In this document: positions 1,864 to 58,151 of the stretch, one piece after another
How the letters are laid out: each line of letters opens with the position of its first letter
How positions within the stretch are numbered: position 1 is the first letter of the stretch
DNA from: Lepraria neglecta
Taxonomy: Eukaryota; Ascomycota; Lecanoromycetes; Lecanorales; Stereocaulaceae
DNA length: 64,000 bases
Reading direction: 5' to 3'
Assembly (NCBI GenBank): GCA_033220425.1
Contig: CM065653.1
Span: 992,001 to 1,056,000 of the forward strand
Position numbers and translations under genes: made by a program
Notes under the pieces: model-generated
Database searches by the model: none
Seen by the model: the letters and a program-made list of their open reading frames with translations, nothing else
Told to the model about the DNA's origin: nothing

Positions 1864-4841
1864 TCATGAAACAGCTTGCAGTCTTCTTAACAGCCGAGAA
1901 GCCAGCGCTCGAGGGAATTTGCCATTGAAGATGTCTGATAGAGTGATGGACGCCTTATTGGGATATTGGCCATCAGTTGCTGATAAAGGGGATAGGATCA
2001 CGCCATGCGGATCCGCCTTGTGAAAGAGAAAGATGTCAAAGACATAGAAGAAGTCCGCTTCGGACGCTGTCTCGGGATCTCTGCAATTGAAGTGGAAAAA
2101 CTCGACGAAGTGCTCCCACAAGCTGTTTGGCTCTGACACAACATCTTCCCTTTGAAGATCACCGCCATACCGGAGCAGTAAATCGAGTATGCGAAGACGA
2201 CCTTCGTTTGACTCGGCTGACAAGTTCCCTTTACTAATAAACAAAAGCCAAGCCAACCAGGTAACCTTTCCATGAAAGTCCTTGTTGGGGTCCAAACCGC
2301 GCTCTAACAATAGCCGAAACATGGCCAAAAGATCAGACTCTCTGCACTTCAGAATTACCCAGAATTGAAGAGCATAGCCAAGTATCGGCATTTGACCCTC
2401 GGAAATTAGAGAGGGTGTCTCGCTCAGTCGTTCTGAGACATAATGGGACAGCCCGCTGGCAACCGCGAGATCAAAGAAAGACGCAATCTCAAGGGAATCA
2501 CATGGATTGGAGCTTACATTCAGCTTCTTTCTCACGAGCTCCGATATATGACAGCGGGGCCAGTGGCCTCGGGACGGGGATTCTGCTAAGGTGGGCTCAA
2601 GTGCGTCAAGCAGCTCTCGATCCGAACTTCTTTGCTCTATCTCAGCCTGGTAAGCATGGCGCATTATGTTATCAAGCTGTTCCTTTATGATAAGTAAAAT
2701 ATATCCCTCCTTCACATCTTGTACTGGCATTGTTTTGATCAACGCAAGATAACTTCTGCAGAGCGAAGTGTTGGCGTTGAAAGACTCTTCCTCCAAGTAA
2801 CGCCCAAGCATTGATCGCACGGCTCTGCTCCTAAGAAAGTCCCGCATGGTGCGATGCAGGAAATCAACTCTTGTGCCCCAGAATGCCGACCCTGACGATT
2901 CAACGTATACCTCTAAGAGATCTTTGAACCGGCCGTTCAATCTTCGGGCCATGCTTGCATGGCGTGACCTGAATTCAATCTGGTTCATCTCTTGGGTGGC
3001 GAGCTTCACAGCAAAGTCGGCATCTGTTTCTTCGAGAAACGAATAGGCAATCAGAGGGAGGTCCTCTGTAGCCTGGAGGGCTTCTTGGAAAGTTTGAGCC
3101 ATAGCTTTGCGGTGAAACATATCTAACCGGCCAAGTGTATGTCGGAAAAGATCCTCCAAATCCGCAGGCAGATGATCGAGCCTAGCCATGAGCGTAATCA
3201 TGCTATCTCCATCGGTCAAGCCGTTACAAAGCGAATGGATGACAAGGACTACCCATAGAAACACGCCCTGTTACCTATCTACAACTTTTTGGACCGATTG
3301 TTGGTATCGCGCTTCGTCCGGTGAAAGGGACATGAACTTCATATGGCCTTCGAATTTGCTTATCACGTAGTGCTCGATATCACCACGCGTCAAGTCTTGC
3401 CAGTACAGTTTCCGCTCGTTATTTCGTCCGTACACGTCTTTGAAGATATTCCAAGGACGACTTGAGAGACACATCTTTATGTTCGGTGATCTCGTTAAGG
3501 TGTCAAGGATTCTTCAAACATCGGCGTGGTTTCCTTCATATTCATCGAGGCCGTCAATAAAAACGCAGAACTTAGCGGACATGGGCTGCTGATGAGCCAA
3601 TCGATCCATTGTCTCTGACAGCTCCACGAGGTCCCAAGATCCATCATATATGAAGTCTGCATCAGTCCAGTCCAAACGAGTAGGACAGTCAATTTGAGTA
3701 AGCTCGGGACACTTCCTCAACACTTCATGTAGTAACGATTGAAGTAATCATTCTTGAGACCTCTGCATGTCGGTCCCAGTGTCCCAGAAAAAGTAGCTTG
3801 CTGTTACAAGTTTGGAGCCGTTTGCCCATGCCCAAAGGTTGCTTTCCGTATCCGGATCTGACTTCAAATACTTCATGAGTGTTGATTTACCCGATCCAGC
3901 TTTGCCAGAGACCCAGAACACAGCGTCTCCGGACCTTAGCCACTCGGGGAACCTAACAGTCCCGCATCTTGGAACGGAAGTTCGTGACGTTGGCCTGAAG
4001 ATCCAGTCAAAGGTTTCACTATAGGCAATCATGACCTTTCTTTGGCGGGCTTCGATTTTCTTGAGTCGTAAGCTGTTCAGGACTTTGTGCTCTTTAGCTA
4101 CGTGTGACGCAGTTGAAATGGCTTCTGATAGGGCCTTAGCTATGTCAGTCAGCTCGTGCTGGGTGAAAGTAGATTTAGGTGTCGTCTACGCCAATTCCAG
4201 CTCCTTAGCTAAGTCTTTGAGTTGGTCTTCCCCATACGAGTCCACTCGCCGAGACTCTTGCCGAAGTGATTGAATTTTTCCGAGCAAAACCCCCTGTTGA
4301 TCACTACCTTAGTTAGTCAGGCCAAGCTAGATAGTAAGTTATGGTCCACTTGGGAATGATTCGGCTGTGAGGGCATGGGTGGGGCAACAGCAAAGATAAG
4401 TCGAAGGTACCGTAAAAGGGCAGCAAAGTGTAGGTTGAGCTGGCCGCTGGCAGTATCTAGGTTTTTCTGTAGAGCTTCAATCGTCTTTTGCCTCCAAGCA
4501 CTTTTCAACGCTTGCCGAAAGCTACGCCACTTTCGAAGAGATCCGGTAGCGACCTTCAATTCTTGAACGAAACTTATCAATTCATCCGCAGTGCCTTGGC
4601 AAGATGCCACGACTCTCTCCAAGGCCTGCCCTTCAGCAGAACTTTCCGCATTAGAAGGCGTAATGAGCCTTCGGCTCAGGTCATAAAGATCCTGGTAAAG
4701 GGTTCCCGGTTGCTTATGCCTCACTGTAGCGCCGGTGAATGATGAGTATAGTTCTTGAGATTCAGAAAGAACTTTCCTCCCAAAGTCAATGAACAGTAAG
4801 ATGTTGCCTGCTAGGCTGACGGCCGAAAGTGGGTCGAGCAT
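1864..4841 (-). pseudogene. NLR-like STAND protein (NACHT/NPHP3-type P-loop), disrupted by four stops
   Basis: Fungal intracellular receptor-like NTPase of the kind linked to incompatibility and innate recognition. Exon 1 (4841-4350) starts MLDPLSAVSLAGN, the usual N-terminal domain of fungal STAND proteins. A 56-nt intron (4349-4294) leads to exon 2, whose single frame then runs to 1864: linker, FDWIF, P-loop GKAGSGKST (near 3900), Walker B FCVFIDGLDEYEG (near 3540), CLSSRPWNIF (near 3455), GVFLWVV (near 3260), then a ~450-residue helical C-terminal part without clear ankyrin or WD repeats. In-frame stops lie at 4186-4188 (TAG), 3748-3750 (TGA), 3514-3516 (TGA) and 3271-3273 (TAA). No frameshift separates the blocks, so the protein is fully alignable across the stops. 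All four stops can come from single transitions of sense codons (CAG, CGA/TGG, CAA). Inference: a recently dead gene. Confidence 0.85.
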
Positions 4842-44231: not shown

Positions 44232-45059
44232 TGATGGAGTTCTATGAGCCATGACATAGGCTGCACGAGCTACGAGCCAGGACGAGATATGAGGCATGCA
44301 ATAGCACCAATCAATAGATCGACCCATTGAAGCTTATATGGTAACGGGCCTGCTTGTGTAGTAAGTTTCACATTAATTGTGTGGGCTGAAGAAAATGAAC
44401 ATTGAACCTTCTGTAGCCAGCCCCTGGGCTGCTTGGTGGATCTTGACATTCTGCGCGATACTTGCCAAGGTAGTCAACGTTTTTCCTCCATGACCAGTGC
44501 CAAATTCTAGGGCTCATGGTTGGACCTTCGGAGATATATCCGTACCTTGGGGACTTGTAAAGCAGCAACCCTTTAAGTTTGAGGAAAATCGATTGCGTAG
44601 AAGGCTAACTAGGCAGAAACTTTCTACCTGGAAGACCACAAATGAAACAACGATTGCAGGCTAGGCTGTTCAATTTGGGGTAGAGCTTCAAGACTGTCAT
44701 GCCATGCAGGTACAACAAACGTCGAGACGTTACCGCGGGCGGAAGATCTACAAAAAGCCTTGGCGGAATAAGCCAACAAATATGTGCCCCCAGCTCAGTC
44801 GAAAGCTCCCCCGGGCGTTACCGCTTTAGCGAGAGAGCTGGGTGAGCTAGGTGAGCAAGGGGTGAGCAGGGGTGACGCAACACCCGATCCGGGTGCTGCA
44901 AAACCTCCTGGCCCGCACCAAACCCCACGCTCAGGACTGCGAAAGCTCACAGCCTATTTTAGGTGACCACACAGAATAGCCGGGACGGCGAGGCATAAAG
45001 GAGGGTGCTGGCCTCTTACCCCGAACCTTCGTTACTCGCCCTAGAGAAGTCCCTTCACC
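44232..45059. other. Transition from gene space into the decayed element
   Basis: No gene. GTTACCGC occurs at 44729-44736 and 44817-44824, and a GTGAGC-type repeat (GGTGAGCTAGGTGAGCAAGG) near 44840-44860. The DNA is still GC-balanced here, in contrast to what follows. A boundary of the decayed element may lie within this stretch. Confidence 0.4.
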
Positions 45060-48000
45060 TCCCCATCCTCCCCAGCCTACTATTTTGTCTGCCCGCAGCC
45101 ATAGTCCAGACTACAAAGCCTTAAGAGCGAACAGACAGGGCCCTTAGCAGGGGCTATAAGTTTGGTACCCGTTATCACGAGGATAGCAAGCCGGATTCCG
45201 TCAAGTATATAGGAAAGACCTTGATCGAGCAGGATCGGGTCTTGCGGTATTACCAAGAGTAAGCACCTTCGTATTAGCTCTATACCGACATTCCCACTTA
45301 CAAACTATCTAGGTAGACAATATATATCAAGGGCGAGAAGGAAAAGGCAGGGGACTCCTCCTCTACAACGATAGGGCCAACGATAGCGTACATACTACAG
45401 GACCCCAGAGCCTTCGGAGCGGTCTACTCCTACTCAATCTCGCTATAACCAAGGACTTCATTCGCTATCTCATTACCTCCAGCGAAGGGGTCCTTAATAA
45501 ATAAGGACGCGTCACCGTCAACTCTATAGTCACTTTCGCCGAGTACTTCTTCGCGGGATTCACTCAGGTAACCAGCAGTATCATCAGTAAGGAAGATAGA
45601 TCAGTAATATACCGCGTAAGTTACTCCTGGGTCGATTACAGCGGGTGCCACGGCTAATATCGACTCTAACCTAGTAGGCGAGGTATACTCTAAGGCCGGA
45701 GGGAATAATCGTCAATAAAGAAAGAGCGAAATACCTGTTTAGCAAAGAAGAGCTCGTCGCGTTTACTATCACATTCTAGTCCGTCGATAATACCCACTTC
45801 ATTCATCCACGTAACAAGATTCAGATCCTATTCCTTATATCGGTATTCTACTGGACTAGAGCTAGAATTAGGGCCTTCTTCCCCGACAACAGGGATAAGA
45901 AAGGAGGGGGCCTCCGATATAGGGTAAGTAGACCTGGCGATTAAGGAGGCGCCAGTCGAGGGCTATCTTTACTTACTGTTTGCAGGATATTAACCTCGTC
46001 CTTAGACGCTGCGATAGTAATAATTAGAAAGCGATCTATAGTCTCAGCTAATACTGGGTAAAAAACAACCGTGACCCGGAGAATATCCTATATAGTCTCC
46101 GTCTGCTACTATAGTCTTATACTAGCTAATCAGTAAATTCTCTATAAGGTATTATATATCTACTAGCTAGTACGAGAAACTCCTCTACGACGATACCCAA
46201 TATCTAATAACTATAGCTATCACTGACAAAGCTCTTTATAGTATCGACTCCTACGATATATTTCTACAGCTGAGTATTCCTCCCGGCGAAGACCAACTCA
46301 TCCTCCTATAGAACCCCGAGTTACTATATCTACCTATTCTACGTAACGCCACTATAACGAATAGCGTTACTAAGGATCCGCTAAAATAATCGACCTTTAA
46401 AAATATTTTCAGATAGGTGATACAGCTATTAGGATACTTTGGCTCAGCTACGGTTTATACTATATAACGCGGACTCGGCAAAAAGATCGACGGTATATCG
46501 CCCTAGCTATTCTAAATACGGAAGTAGGCTCGCTAAGCGGTTATAACACAGAGTGATACACTGAGGTCCAGCGGTCTCAGTATCTTATCTAGTCTAACCC
46601 TCGTGTCTTTGGTATAGACTATATAGCTAATTCCTCTTCCGTCTATAGCAAAAGAGTATTCGCCGGCGAAAACGCCGACTATAGCTATATTAACTACTTT
46701 CAATTATTTGCCCCGCTCCGCAAGAAAGGTCTTCTACGTAAACTACTAGCAGAGAAATCGGCTAAGCTCAGGTAGAATCCAGAGCTTCTAGAACTTCAAG
46801 ACTATATCCGTGACCTTAAAATCAATAGAGCTACTAGTAAGGACATCGCTAAAGCTGCAGCGGAGCTTACGAATCGTCGTAACAGGCTAACTAACTAGGC
46901 CTTACGATAATATAAAGAGGATTAGGTTAAAGAGCGAAGGAGATAGAAGATCTATACCTAAGGGAAGAAGAGTGCAGACGATATTATTAAAGTCGATCTT
47001 TCTCTTATACTATTATAGCTAATACCTAAGTATAGTCGCCTAGTAAGAGTTATAATATCTAAGAGCGAGGTATCTATAGAGTAACGGGAATAAACGATAA
47101 GAGACTTATATTTACTTGCTTCTTGGGACTATACGGTTATATATCTCCCTAGAGAGGAGCCGGTTAACGGCCGGTATCCTATAGAGGGTTATATATTAGT
47201 TATAGCAAAGTAAGAGAGCCTCTTCTACCCGTCCTTATAAACATTTAAAGGATACTAATAGTCACAGTCTTCCGAAGGTCTAATAGAGTATCTATATCTA
47301 TAGCTACTAGAGAAAAGAAATAGTACATATAAAGAAGCGAGACAAAGCCGAATTAAGATATTACTTCGACTACTTCGATTAGTATATCGAAGAGTACTAG
47401 GATAAGTATTGCCAAATATATATCGACCATATCCGATTAAGACGCTATACGTCTATTATCTACTATAACACCCTTGTATACCCGTCCTACTACCCCTTCT
47501 ATATCAGGAATCCCCAGCTCCTCGCGGGCAAGAGGTAGGAGTCTTAGACTAGAGATACCAAGATACAGGCTTATCTTAACGACCATATAGATCGATCCCG
47601 TTAGCCGCTTAAGTGCCCTTATCCCCTGTATAAAGCAGAGAAATAGTTTAATAATAGGCTATTATTCCTCTATCATCTGGACGACGCGTATAATCTAGAT
47701 ACCCGCCAGATACAAGACGACTGTCGGGATTTATAGGCCAAAGTGGTTAAGCCGATGAGCGTAATTGTATATACTCGCGATATTATAGGGCGGAAGCGAA
47801 AGGAGCCGGATGGCTTTAACGCCGCTCTCTATCCTCCTACGCAGTATAAGAACTATCGAAAGGTCGCTAAGATTATAGAGAAATCTATACTCCTATCGGT
47901 AACGACTGTATTACCTACCTCGCTCTAACTTTCTGCGAGTAAGTATCCTAAAGAGTTAGTATTAGTCGATACCCTATTTACGACGACCGCCGTCGAGAAT

Positions 48001-48590
48001 ACTGAAGCTCCTACCGTGGAATAGGGCAAGCTGAGAGACACCTTCAGGTATCTAGAGTATATACAAGCCTAGACCGTCGATCCTAAGGTATTATTACTAA
48101 AGCTGTAGCCCTTAATTAACCTCGACGACGAAGCCTCGCTCCGGTAGCCTTTAGAGTTATCCGTAACGATTCTTTCCCCGAAACTCGAATTACCCGATCT
48201 TAACCCTAAGGTCTCCTTTATCAATATTTCCACCGGTAATAGACTATATCATCTACCGGAATTAACTTATAGCGGGCCGATGTCCCCTCTCGATACCGAT
48301 CATCTATCCCCCGTTAAGACTAACAAACCTCGTATCACACTTCAGATCCGCCCACCCAAACCTGGGCCTAAGCCGAAGGTATTACTACGACTAAGCCAGC
48401 CAAAGCAAGCCCTAGCCCAGATGCCCGTCCGTCAAGGGATCAAAAATCGTAGAAGACGACGGACATAATATGACACTAGGTACAATGAGTTTAGGCCCTC
48501 GCCTCCCCGATGGGTAGAGAGTTCTTCAATCCGTCTTCTTATATCTAAGGAGCTAGGTATATAGGCTCCGCATCCTCCATAGAAAATCAA
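45060..48590 (+). pseudogene. RIP-like degraded DUF3435/FluG tyrosine-recombinase gene (Starship-captain family)
   Basis: The DNA becomes very TA-rich (CTATA, TATAG everywhere) and stop codons fill all frames, yet family text is readable on the plus strand. In order: DFIRYLITSSEGVLNK (45450-45500), FIHPRNKIQILFLI (from 45798), ARIRAFFPDN, LRYR then an intron with intact GTAAGT...TTTGCAG ends joining to DINLVLRR, WVKNNRDPENILYS (from 46054), PILRNATITNSVTKDPL (~46330-46380), VYTI*RGLGKKID (46460s, the HxxR box with His to Tyr and Arg to stop), VQRSQYL, NPRVFGIDYIANSSSVY and NYFQLF (catalytic Tyr), and a late C2H2-like CPYPLYKAEK..FLYHLDDAYN (~47620). Stops replace Trp and Gln, consistent with C-to-T on both strands. 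DUF3435 proteins include the captains of Starship elements; whether this one was a captain is inference. Confidence 0.8.
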
Positions 48591-48598
48591 GGCAATCT

Positions 48599-49141
48599 AT
48601 GCAGGATAATCCTTCAGCTGTTCCATCCAACACTAATCTACTCTCTTTTACATCAGCTTCTCGAACGACCTCTATCCGAGATCGCATGCGCCGTCTGGAT
48701 GAGATAAGACCACAGACTGACTTCGACCTCTATGACGCTTATGTTCAAGCGCAGAGTCTATCTTTGCCTCGTCGTCAGCCGCTGCTACTCCGTTCCGCTC
48801 CCGAAAGCGACAGCGAGAGCGATGCGCCCAACGTGTACTACAGGACCCCAAGACGTCCCGTTCGTCGGCTTGCTTTTACGTCCAGGCTTAATGCCAACAG
48901 GGAGGAGCGCGACAGCGATAGCGATACTCGCACCAATGTTAGGCGTCGAAGACGGAACCAGCTTCGCCCACGTGCTATAACTTCCAGTGCCACTATGAAT
49001 AGCGTAAACGACTCGAACAACAGCTCTCAAGGCAGTATGGAGCGGCAACCCTGTAATGCGCCCTCCTGGTACCAGGGAAGTAACATCGCCTGGGCCGATG
49101 AGAATGGCTTCGCCACTGATGGAGACGGGAACGTCATGTAA
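48599..49141 (+). CDS. Hypothetical low-complexity protein
   Basis: 180-codon ORF (MQDNPSAVPSNTNLL...) of normal base composition, starting within ~10 bp of the end of the TA-rich relic. Rich in Arg, Ser, Asp and Asn; RRRRRNQLRPR resembles a nuclear signal; no domain. The C-terminal PSWYQGSNIAWADENGFATDGDGNVM is less repetitive and may be the conserved part. It could belong to the element to its left (spared from mutation), or be chance. I do not recognise it. Confidence 0.35.
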   Translation: MQDNPSAVPSNTNLLSFTSASRTTSIRDRMRRLDEIRPQTDFDLYDAYVQAQSLSLPRRQPLLLRSAPESDSESDAPNVYYRTPRRPVRRLAFTSRLNANREERDSDSDTRTNVRRRRRNQLRPRAITSSATMNSVNDSNNSSQGSMERQPCNAPSWYQGSNIAWADENGFATDGDGNVM

Positions 49142-49582: not shown

Positions 49583-50379
49583 CAAGGCTCTTGATGGTCG
49601 ACCGACTACTTAAGGGCTTGGCGGTTTAAACGGTTGGTTTGCTTTTTTTGCTTCGTAGTTGGTCCAGTTTGAGATCTTATTGGTCCGGTTTAAACCGTCT
49701 GACTTATATGGTTGACGGTTTAAACGGTTTAAACCGTTGGTTTTGCGGAGGTGTGGCAAATTTTTAATAAGGTTAGCGTATTACATATAGGGCAGGGGAG
49801 GCGTGCTTGGGGGCAGTGAGCATGTCTGAGACTGACGCTAAGCTATTATTGGCTAGCGTAGCATACATGTGTCAACTTGAAAAAGTGTCGCAATCGAATA
49901 TTTGGAAGCTTTGGGGGTCGAGCTCGGTCTATGCGAAAAAGCCAAAAGACGCTGTATCGCAAATTTGCTCAGGGCGACGACATGCTATTCTGAATGGATC
50001 TATCTATAAGCCTGATGCACGCCGGTGTTGCTTAGGATGCTTATGAGCCCCGAAGGGTGTTACTATGTACTTATTTTGTGGTGTCGTCGTCGCATACCCC
50101 GTCGGCGGTATTGGCAAATACACCGCATTTTTGACTCCAAATCTCCAAGGAAACTCACGTTCAACTTGAGCTTGCGGTTACCTAATTTTGGTGAGATTTA
50201 CACTAAATCTAGGTGCTTTGCGGCTGCTTCCCAGTACTCAAACCGTTTAAAACCGTTTAAACCGACGGTTTAAACGGTTCAAACGGTTTGACTTCTAAAC
50301 CGAACCACCAACCACTAAAAACCGTCACTTTGGACGGTTTGCCTTTCAAACTGGACCGTTTGGACCATCAAGAGCCTTG
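49583..50379. mobile_element. Putative ~0.8-kb hAT-like non-autonomous element with TTTAAACC palindromes
   Basis: CAAGGCTCTTGATGGTC (49583-49599) is matched by its exact complement at 50363-50379, giving CA...TG-type 17-bp inverted ends. Next to the ends lie clusters of GGTTTAAACGGTTTAAACC-like palindromes (49620-49745 and 50232-50350), typical of subterminal transposase-binding arrays. No transposase ORF inside. Weak points: the 8 bp outside the ends (CCAGCTTT / GCGGTCTG) do not match, and an additional direct repeat CTTGGCGGT (49617-49625, 50376-50384) suggests another reading of the ends. Internal ORF 49807-50046 has no motif. Confidence 0.6.
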
Positions 50380-54938: not shown

Positions 54939-55643
54939 CTATGCGATTTCCCGATCTAATTCTCTCTGTGCCTCCAAATCTGCCCGTTCCTTAGTTATAG
55001 CGCGCGCATTCTTTGAACTTAGTACACCGCCTGTTTGGAGTATCTGATTGGTCGCCGATTTACGTTGTTTTCGAGCCTCCTCAGCCCGAATTTGTTGGTC
55101 GAATCGTGCTTCCATTAATTCGCCTCGGCGGTCCCCAGCAACCGCACCTTTGACCAATGAGCTTAGCGGCTGCAGAAGGCTCTGGGGCACGTTTGGCGTC
55201 ATAAGAATTGTAGTTGCGGCTCTGGCAAGCTCGCGAATTGTATGCGGAGTGCGCTGTAGGGGCTCGAACTCGTAGGACTCGGTGGGAGGCGGCGTTGCAG
55301 GGCGCGGCGGTGCAGGTGGGTGTGCTTCTCGTACTTTATCGAGTACTAGTACTGGATTATATGGAATAAGCCCTGTTTGCCTCCAAGCAGACCTAATTGT
55401 AGTGCTTTTAAAAGCTTTTGCCCGGAAATCATTAAATGCGTTAAGGAATTCTAGCTTATTGAACTTTTCGTCTCCTATTTGCGTAGCCTTGTTGATAGCC
55501 TCTGAATGCCAGTGTGTTACGAGCCTTTGCAGGACTAGCAATACGCCAGCAGGGCGGATTGGCGTGAAGGTGATCGGACTGATCATAGCATGATTAGTAT
55601 GAACATCTTTGATTAGTCTGGTCATGGTATGATTACTATACAT
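54939..55643 (-). pseudogene. Pogo/Fot1 transposase, C-terminal fragment
   Basis: Open frame of 234 codons containing EAINKATQIGDEKFNKLEFL, FKSTTIRSAWRQTGLIPYNP (typical of the C-terminal third of Fot1/pogo DDE transposases) and a basic, coiled-coil-like tail (QQIRAEEARKQRKS). Its first ~30 codons are encoded by the 37-bp tandem repeats at 55590-55730, so the connection to the catalytic domain is broken. Confidence 0.8.
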
Positions 55644-55735
55644 CTTTGATTAGTCTGGTCATGGTTTGATTACTATACATCTTTGATTAGTCTGATCACG
55701 GTATGATTACTTTGATTAGTCTGATCATGACACTC
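55580..55735. repeat. Tandem repeat, ~37-bp unit, about four copies
   Basis: Units of the form TGATTACTATACATCTTTGA + TTAGTCTGGTCATGGT follow one another with small changes. They lie inside the transposase gene at the junction of its catalytic and C-terminal parts. Confidence 0.8.
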
Positions 55736-56440
55736 TTGGCGCGATTCTCATTTGTCTATATAGAGAGGGCTTCGCCCACCACTTGGAGCATCGTGCTCAA
55801 CTTCGTTACCAACATAGATTTCCTAGCTAGACACTGAACATCATATTATCTCTTTGATACCAGACCCGCCTAGCAACACTCAAGCAAGCCTGCTTACCTT
55901 GGTGATAGACTCTCCGCTCCATATAGAGACAACCCAAAGACCAACGGTCGACTGGTCTTAACACAGTGCTTAAGCGGTTGGAAAACACATACATCTAGTG
56001 GCTGGAGGATATGAGTCGTATGGGACGGAAGCGCTAGCGGAATGATATTATTCTACTCGTAGTACTCCAGGAATTCTTTTGTAGTATAGGATCCGTAGCC
56101 GTCGAAAATAAGGAGTCGGTAACCGCCCTTCTGAAAGCGACGCGAATGGATATTAAAGTGCTTAATCCACTGTAAAGATATCTAATCGTCGGCGTTCCCT
56201 GAGTCGCTAATAGTAATTGCGAGCTTATCTGCTAGGTTATTTTGAAACCATTTAGCTAGAATCCTCTGCCCGGCAATAATAAGCATTGGTGGAATATCCT
56301 GCCCAACCCTATTAATACATTCCTGCGAGGATAACGACTCGCGATTCTCCGGGTCCGCTGAATAGATCTTTCGAATAGGATCCACACTAAGCACCTAATC
56401 CTCGCGTAGTATCCCAATTCGAAAGCCGGTCTCGTCAAAA
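55736..56440 (-). pseudogene. Pogo/Fot1 transposase, catalytic DDE fragment with stops
   Basis: Minus-strand text reads PIRKIYSADPENRESLSSQE (56370s), VGQDIPPMLIIAGQ, ITISDSGNADD followed by a stop (56182-56184), then SLQWIKHF, YRLLIFDGYGSYTTKEF (second catalytic Asp region) and LPSHTTHILQPLDVCVF. At least two stops interrupt it. Clearly dead. Confidence 0.75.
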
Positions 56441-56501
56441 TTCCAGGTATCTTCTAAATGGATCCTGTACTGAGTAACCAAGTCTTTATAGCGCTGGAAA
56501 T

Positions 56502-57701
56502 TGTCACGGCCTGATCCAGTGGTGGTAGAACGGTGGCTATCAATGAGGTGATATGGATAAAATACTGATGCTAAGGAAAGAAGGCCATATGGGCGGGCGA
56601 AGGATCTATATAGGCGGCAGCCCCTGAGCTAGGCCCAATGAGATATGCGCATGCATGGCCAGCCCGTGACACTAACCCCCCTCTCTAAAAAGCGATGTCC
56701 GCAGCGCTATAGCAATCCCCCTAGCAATAGCAATCCCTTCTGTATTCCAACAAATGAAATAAAATGCATTTGTAGTAGGCGCACTGTGTAGGTTGCTCAG
56801 GCCGGGAGCGGATGATTATTCGATAGTCCTATCAAAAGGATCGAATGTTGATATTGCCGCAGAGGGTAGGGTAGAGCAACAGGTAGAGGGCGGAGCGGAG
56901 CGGAGCTGCAGATGTATGGTGGTGCTGCTTTGGATGTAGCACCTGAAGGTAGATGGTTGCACTATGTGTATGGTAGTGCAATGGTGGGCAATGGTTGGTG
57001 AAGCTGCTAAGGGTGCAGCAGCTGAGGGCGGAGGGCGGAGCGGAGCTGTAGATATATGATGGTGCTGCTGAGGATGTAGCACCTGAAGGTAGATGGTTGC
57101 ACTATATGTATGGTAGTGCAATAGTGAGCAATGGTTGGTGAAGCTGCTAAGGGTGTAGCAGCTGAGGGCGGAGGGCGGAGCGGAGGCGGAACTGAGGCGG
57201 AGCTGGTGGTAAGTCGATGTCTCAGTGAAGAGGTCAACTTCCGGAAGAGGTAGAGGTGTCGCTGCGAAGGGTACAGCGGAGGACGAAAGGCGGAGGTGGT
57301 TGAGGGTATCGCTACTGAGGGTGCAGCGGAGGGTCGAGGTGCTACGGGTGTAGCTGGTGGTAGATGTATTACAATTCGATGGCCTAGTGAAAGGATCGAA
57401 TTGCAGGTGTTGATGGTGGTTGGTGAAGCGATAGCACTAGATGGATGGCAGTGCTGGAGAGAAGGATGGTAGCACTAGATGGATGGCAGTGCTGGAGAGA
57501 TGACAGTACTATGTGGATGGTAGTACTGGATGGATGGTGCTTTTGCACCTGGTTGGCTGAACGCCTTGCTGCCGGCCTAACGGCAGCTGGTGGGATGCAT
57601 ATGAAGATACACCCCGGTGGCTTGTTTGGAGCATTAGTATTATGTCCATTATCACCTCATTGATAGCCACCGTTCTACCACCACTGGATCAGGCCGTGAC
57701 A
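56502..57701. mobile_element. 1.2-kb nested element with 52-bp inverted ends and GAAAT target duplication
   Basis: TGTCACGGCCTGATCCAGTG... (56502-56553) and the complement of 57650-57701 are identical over about 52 bp. GAAAT flanks both ends (56497-56501, 57702-57706). It splits the pogo transposase gene between the HTH and catalytic parts. The interior has no transposase, only simple GC-rich repeats. TG...CA ends and a 5-bp duplication are retroelement-like, but the long inverted ends and lack of an LTR pair favour a non-autonomous DNA transposon. Confidence 0.82.
56887..57210. repeat. 140-bp tandem repeat inside the nested element
   Basis: GGATGTAGCACCTGAAGGTA recurs at 56932 and 57072 (period 140 bp), within longer near-identical units containing GGGCGGAGCGGAGCTG and TGGTTGGTGAAGCTGCTAAG. 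Two full copies and partial ones; shorter ATGGATGGCAGTGCTGGAGA repeats follow at 57440-57540. Confidence 0.85.
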
Positions 57702-57706
57702 GAAAT

Positions 57707-58151
57707 GGCCCTGTAGCGGTGCCAAATTATGTGCGTTCTTGCGCGCAGCAGCTAATGACTTTCGTTTGATCTTGTAGAGCTTATCCTGACGTGTAATCCA
57801 CCTCTTAGCCCAATGTATACTGACAGCAGGATACTGTTTTGTAGGATCCGCGTCCTGGCGGAGAATTCGATTCGCGGAGGTCTGGATCTCGCGGAGGCGC
57901 CCTGGGCAGCCCATTTGATCAAGGCCTATGAAGTATTGCTGTAGGGCAAGCTCTTGGTCCGATCGTAGCTTCCTCCCATGGAGTCCTCGTACTGCTGATT
58001 TGGATGGTTTGCCATCGAGTCGTGCTCGGAGGCGCTCGTAAGGTACGTTAAACTCTCTGGCAATTACGCTCCGTTTGGCGTTCTTTCGCGTATTATAGGC
58101 GTCTACGGCCTTGACGATCCTTTTCTCAACGTCTCGATAGGTGTCAGGCAT
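57707..58151 (-). pseudogene. Pogo/Fot1 transposase, N-terminal HTH fragment
   Basis: MPDTYRDVEKRIVKAVDAY opens the frame at 58151. Psq-type HTH (NAKRSVIAREFNVPYERLRARL) is followed by a CENPB/Tc5-type HTH (ELALQQYFIGLDQMG ... VSIHWAKRWITRQ). Coding homology ends at the GAAAT site, where the nested element begins; the frame then runs into it up to 57675. Confidence 0.85.

Follow-up and report, generated by a model that had tools for sequence, protein, structure and literature searches.

Starships, in their derelict state, are among the closest known counterparts of the locus reported here. Their DUF3435 recombinase, the captain, is the first gene of the element and reads inward from the 5' edge, at a distance of about 350 bp in the Starship Sanctuary (PMC12506042). 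Both RIP and pseudogenised captains have been reported in Starships (PMC11905480, PMC12134995, PMC11623301), derelict Starships with RIP or with pseudogenised captains have been described, and the swapping of cargo between Starships has already been reported (both in PMC11623301). Most transposable elements within Verticillium Starship regions are reported to be without RIP (PMC12289983), and RIP is thus not typical everywhere. One study reports that DUF3435 genes more commonly occur solo, asks why many of them look so, through undetected boundaries or through decay, and raises the question of captain swapping (PMC12134995).

We analysed a stretch of 64,000 nucleotides of the Lepraria neglecta genome (the window; C8:992001-1056000 in a genome of 42.0 Mb and 11 contigs, whose genes have introns). 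An earlier note on this DNA had placed a hypermutated DUF3435 relic at 45060..48590 and had suggested that a large mobile element may once have begun there, with the DNA from 48.6 kb onward as possible cargo. The observation is confirmed, in that a hypermutated DUF3435 relic occupies 45.0-48.5 kb, and the stretch is probably the left end of a Starship-like element that is now dead, with a 5' terminus followed by a captain killed by RIP. The interpretation as a whole was half right: the relic and its captain-like position behind a dispersed 5' end stood, whereas its start had to be moved about 300 bp upstream (44757 instead of 45060) and the downstream cargo found no support. To judge from its sequence, the relic looks like a Starship left end, full membership among the Starships being a candidate assignment. 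Because the genome searches scored the best candidates only, counts of loci and places are lower bounds throughout.

The exon frames of the relic, which reads on the plus strand, were fixed by alignment to a paralog, L044, whose open stretches behave as exons (those of exon 3, exon 5, exon 6 and the zinc-finger region are open). L044 is less damaged rather than intact, since a stop in frame directly precedes its zinc-finger stretch. For comparison, tblastn without composition correction was rejected for the exon frames, as it matched all three frames of the RIP DNA. Exon 1 (45071..45262, limits approximate) was aligned by tblastn in one frame to L043, L044, L046, L047 and L048. It is followed by exon 2 (45361..45621; 40/85 aligned residues identical to L044) and exon 3 (45681..45923; 52/82), which carries the presumed recombinase box I in ARIRAFFPDN. 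An intron at 45924..45985 has GT...AG ends (GTAAGT...TTGCAG) and a position identical to that in L044, and exon 4 (45986..46099; 21/33) carries WVKNNRDPEN, identical in L044, and two stops, which face W and Q. Exon 5 (46117..46494; 65/116) represents the DUF3435 core with the presumed box II, now YTI*RG, and exon 6 (46548..47195), with 11 stops and the presumed catalytic Tyr in INYFQ, matches the L044 protein with an E of 2.3e-46 and 43% identity (92/213 residues). Exon 7 (47254..47700; 50/146) is a Cys/His-rich, zinc-finger-like region, within which 47350-47700 matches L044 with an E of 1.5e-17 and 35% identity and contains six TAG codons. Of these three presumed catalytic boxes of tyrosine recombinases, box I (ARIRAFFP) and the one with the nucleophile (NYFQ) are intact, whereas box II reads YTI*R in the relic and HAIRR in L044. 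The landmarks that had been said to be readable (ARIRAFFPDN, WVKNNRDPEN, TI*RGLGKKID and NYFQ) are all at their expected places, and the intron that had been said to have good ends was verified.

The Pfam result for the window alone was too weak to prove a DUF3435 identity, and paralogs were therefore used instead. Three stop-masked forward frames gave one DUF3435 match, which spans 46180-46494 and is below threshold (E 0.029, 13.7 bits, cut-off 25.8), and the relic locus was absent among the matches listed (at least 36) in a six-frame genome search with PF11917. The relic is tied by DNA similarity to paralogs that do match PF11917. Exon 5 of L044 passes the DUF3435 cut-off (E 2.2e-11), exon 6 scores under it (E 3.3e-4, 20.2 bits), and it is the exon 6 and zinc-finger stretches of this paralog that give the relic's strong matches above. 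As judged through its paralogs, the relic is a DUF3435 tyrosine recombinase; the HMM search that had been proposed as a check fell short when made directly and succeeded by way of L044.

The relic lies behind a 5' terminal block at 44757..44857 on the plus strand (GCCTTGGC here, GGCTTGGC in most copies, with the core CCGCTTTAGCGAG), and DNA from about 44755 to 44850 recurs throughout the genome. When the window was aligned with 28 other copies, the likeness started at or near GGCTTGGC, abruptly in most of them, and the sequence further left was unrelated. The core was found with up to two mismatches at at least 41 places in the genome, compared with 0 for a reversed control. DNA was taken for 30 of these 41 places, and 25 sequences (the window and 24 others) entered a realignment of the 5' blocks, the four left out from the 28 being L039, L047, L064 and L071 (truncated or gapped); L070, which had no core match, and L048 did not enter it either. 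Given this recurrence with unrelated left flanks, the element appears to begin at about 44757, an edge inferred from shared similarity, some 300 bp upstream of the gene. The first exon relic follows from about 45071 on the same strand, behind a leader or promoter-like region (44858..45070, plus strand), and 44775-45034 is 87% identical over 260 bp to C8:1754429-1754688, the nearest 5' end to that of the window copy. As in Starships, the recombinase is thus the first gene and is directed inward from a nearby 5' edge. The RNA fold of the block was unremarkable (z -1.3).

A captain piece lies within 8 kb downstream at at least 8 of the 41 blocks, with a ninth (L075) recognised by DNA, and a partner gene, described below, lies within 30 kb at at least seven, convergent in six of the seven. 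The other 32 blocks showed no captain over the same 8 kb in these lower-bound searches, and the block could therefore spread independently of the captain. Four further 5'-block loci were read over 3.5 kb: L075 and L078 contain part of the captain or the partner gene, and L076 and L077 contain little or nothing beyond the 5' region. With a terminus defined by sequence, dead captains and captain-less remnants become countable in one genome without an empty site.

A second gene, convergent with the captain, was found downstream of it in L042, L044, L045 and L046. A search with the partner protein gave at least 27 matches, which were grouped into 15 loci after the exclusion of two weak single matches (E 0.009 and 0.03), and a piece of the gene from L078 (C8:480200-483700), where it lies behind a 5' end in an orientation opposite to that at the other loci, has sub-threshold, coiled-coil-like Pfam matches only. 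In the captain tally (28 entries for 27 captain-like loci, L048 being entered twice), the partner gene lies within 30 kb in at least 10 of the 27 loci, on the opposite strand in all 10, and none was listed for 17. Among the paralogs, unit length ranges from about 2.7 to 26 kb: L045 and L046, which have both ends in common, represent short units of 2.7 and 5.3 kb; L039 and L043 have a WD40 and a TPR gene, respectively, between captain and partner, with distances of about 13 and 17 kb between the 5' end and the partner; and L049 measures 26 kb from captain to partner, with no 5' block seen. The WD40 gene of L039 and the TPR genes downstream of the captains in L041 and L043 contain near-identical 126-bp (42-aa) repeats.

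This family resembles Starships in the C-terminal zinc-finger-like region of the relic and in the WD40 and TPR genes as possible cargo in paralogs. It differs from them in that several members are shorter than 15 kb, a length class that one Starship survey removes, treating it as captain indels (PMC12153272), and in the recurrent convergent coiled-coil partner gene, of which term searches in the captain literature returned no description, a result that holds for the terms searched. Neither direct repeats common to the family nor a 3' end was found in the loci searched.

The identity of the relic with its paralogs is uneven along its length. Over 45360-48300 it is only 46-58% identical to the paralogs compared, whereas the 248-bp tract at 48309..48556 (plus strand), which resembles the basic C-terminal tail and 3' sequence of another captain lineage, is 81-88% identical to L039-L043 (81-84% to L040, L041 and L043, up to 88% to L039; L042 was compared over the first 209 bp) and 60-65% identical to L044, L046 and L047. 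Thus, the window copy looks mosaic, with its last 248 bp from another captain lineage. A general constraint on the tail fails to explain this likeness, as L041 and L044 are 85% identical in the captain part and 64% in the tail. Within the other lineage, the tail may be better conserved or more often exchanged, since L041 and L043 are more alike in it (85%) than in the captain part (72%), which weakens the case for a scar in the window a little. A junction of a related kind is found in L079, where a distant captain with its own zinc-finger exon is followed by 171 bp of an L041-type zinc-finger exon (93.5%) and then by the partner gene. L042 has the same junction (93.6% over 491 bp), and L080 combines the distant captain of L079 and L042 (82-84%) with a partner gene. 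Captain swapping is one possible reading of the L079/L042 junction, and a nested insertion followed by a deletion is another.

A bolder reading, which we put forward tentatively and consider rather unlikely, describes the family as compact and modular captain elements with two ends: the conserved 5' terminus and the captain form the left one, the convergent coiled-coil gene lies at the right, and an insert may be present in the middle (units of about 2.7-26 kb). Captains would be exchanged by recombination in which the tail of the old captain stays in place, as at the L079/L042 junction and, as another scar, in the 248-bp tail of the window copy. If true, such units would bridge solo captains and giant Starships. 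The tail junctions offer a concrete test of captain swapping. The relic itself is a derelict captain, a kind already known; the compact partner-gene family and the tail junctions may be the parts worth the attention of specialists.

The window copy could also be a captain-only element of about 3.8 kb, Crypton-like in size and ending near 48556, which would overlap with the reading as a dead Starship-like left end except at the right edge. The similarity between the window and its paralogs does stop at about 48556, and the two short members that share both ends (L045 and L046) show that small units exist. However, the last 248 bp resemble another lineage, and L039, L040 and L043 stay alike beyond 48556, so that this point looks like a breakpoint rather than a terminus, and we consider a captain-only element unlikely. 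Cryptons are short tyrosine-recombinase elements without proven terminal inverted repeats, recognised by a GCR1_C DNA-binding domain behind the recombinase. Unlike in Crypton YR transposons, the recombinase of the relic is of the DUF3435 type, and GCR1_C was absent from the Pfam matches obtained for the three frames of the window at E up to 1 and for four L044 exon stretches at E up to 0.1.

A direct-repeat search of nine loci found no repeat common to the family and no 3' boundary for the window copy: the longest repeats were 11 bp in the window, 10 bp in L047 and 8 bp or less in the other seven, with about one match of 10 bp or more expected by chance (an estimate). The 11-bp repeat in the window, AGCCTTGGCGG at 44756 and 50373, was considered as the flanks of a 5.6-kb element, with about 0.1 such matches expected by chance in the span searched (an estimate), and was not adopted because it overlaps the end of a separate repeat. 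The latter, at 49583-50379, is about 800 bp long; its terminal inverted repeats, CAAGGCTCTTGATGGTC, are perfect over 17 bp, and it contains several TTTAAACCG palindromes. It has at least dozens of partial copies in the genome, one of them inserted in the captain locus L040, and is putatively hAT-like. Rfam gave five sub-threshold matches over 44-51 kb, all in this palindromic repeat near 50.2 kb, and they were judged to be due to chance.

A further alternative is that a full giant Starship begins here and that the genes from 48.6 kb onward (GMC oxidoreductases, a P450 and transposons) are its cargo, in line with the captain-like 5' end and with the WD40 and TPR genes that separate captain from partner in L039 and L043. 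The open frame at 48599-49141 had no Pfam match, and beyond 50379 there are pieces of a GMC oxidoreductase, a Tc5-type transposase and a P450, none of which is tied to the element. Searches downstream of the window copy did not find a partner gene, the continuous RIP signal ends at about 48.5 kb, and the sole boundary repeat is the 11-bp match at 50373, which coincides with the end of the TIR-bounded repeat. With neither a partner gene nor a 3' end found, cargo from 48.6 kb is unsupported, though conceivable, and a giant Starship at this position is distinctly doubtful.

It is still less probable that the relic is a solo DUF3435 recombinase gene that simply decayed without ever having belonged to a mobile unit. 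Solo genes are the more usual reported form, as noted above; like them, the window copy is without demonstrated cargo, and its 3' end was not found. Unlike them, it sits behind a dispersed 5' block, which recurs genome-wide with unrelated flanks, and its decay is CpA-directed.

The nature of this decay was evaluated by the composite RIP index, TpA/ApT minus (CpA+TpG)/(ApC+GpT), in 500-bp windows, and by the direction and context of mutations. The index was 0.79-1.34 in the 13 windows starting at 45001-48001, whereas the 240 windows outside the relic had a mean of -0.54 (sd 0.36), with 14 above 0 and none above 1; the highest of these, 0.79 at 50001 and then 0.66 at 50251, are in and next to the separate repeat. 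The relic is thus far outside its neighbouring DNA. In 45401-48300, TpA (388) dominates over CpA (91) and TpG (42), as had been claimed, GC falls to 0.40 at 46-48 kb, and CpG is not depleted (observed/expected up to 1.5). Rare TpG and CpA with undepleted CpG is the CpA-directed form of RIP. When mutations were counted against the per-column majority of the paralogs, with L049 excluded as too diverged, C>T/G>A changes had occurred at 76/132 CpA and 73/101 TpG sites, compared with 22/125 CpC, 10/146 CpT, 20/83 GpG, 27/157 ApG and 19/188 CpG (both strands pooled) at non-RIP contexts; over all C/G sites, 247/932 had changed in this direction, against 136/1019 A/T sites in the opposite one. Changes at CpA and TpG together are few in the paralogs L044 (25/146) and L041 (9/130), and L049 is RIP-mutated too (57/88 CpA, 26/80 TpG). 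Furthermore, opposite the 29 stops in the aligned exons of the relic, L044 has nine W, seven Q, five R, two K, two C, one each of S, E and L, and one gap, so that W or Q accounts for 16 of them and R for five more, in agreement with the claim that Trp and Gln codons had become stops. The direction and context of mutation demonstrate RIP of the window copy, and with it the C-to-T hypermutation that had been read from the letters. Ordinary AT-drift of a pseudogene is scarcely credible, in spite of the age suggested by the low identity to the paralogs (46-58%), since C>T/G>A changes in the captain part hit 145/220 CpA/TpG sites against 96/652 other C/G sites and 136/974 T>C/A>G changes, and CpG is undepleted.

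A repeated substrate for RIP is present, namely the family paralogs and the second 5' end of the window's type (C8:1754429), although the present-day captain paralogs are too diverged to be direct RIP partners of the relic. DNA-methylase domains occur at at least four loci in the genome, which is compatible with a RIP machinery.

These results can be joined into a probable history. The element would have carried, from 44757 onward, a conserved 5' terminus and then a multi-exon DUF3435 captain with a C-terminal zinc-finger-like region, and the living captain would have recognised both this terminus and a right end, moving the DNA between them. The subfamily would once have been present in more than one copy, whereupon RIP converted C to T at CpA sites of both strands, created the stops in exons 2 to 7 as aligned here and changed box II. 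The reading as a dead Starship-like left end needs a further step, because the tail is little RIP-mutated (RIP-context changes 5/17, compared with 145/220 in the captain part): a copy of another captain lineage, which recombined with the relic or came to lie beside it, probably once RIP had acted, would have supplied the cleaner 248-bp tail at 48309-48556.

Several minor observations were made in the course of the analysis. In 45401-48300, CpA (91) outnumbers TpG (42) by far, a possible strand bias of RIP events. In L048 (C4:493000-502900), the captain is broken between exons 5 and 6 into two halves of opposite strand, as if the 3' half had been inverted. Elsewhere in the window, a transposase DNA-binding piece with an HTH_Tnp_Tc5 match (57678-58151) lies within 54939-58151, which also holds a second frame at 54942-55643 without a Pfam match, putatively pogo-like, with tandem repeats between the two. 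Gene pieces at 1864-4841 on the minus strand, with a DUF7791 match at 1867-3264, resemble a putative fungal NACHT/NLR-type protein.
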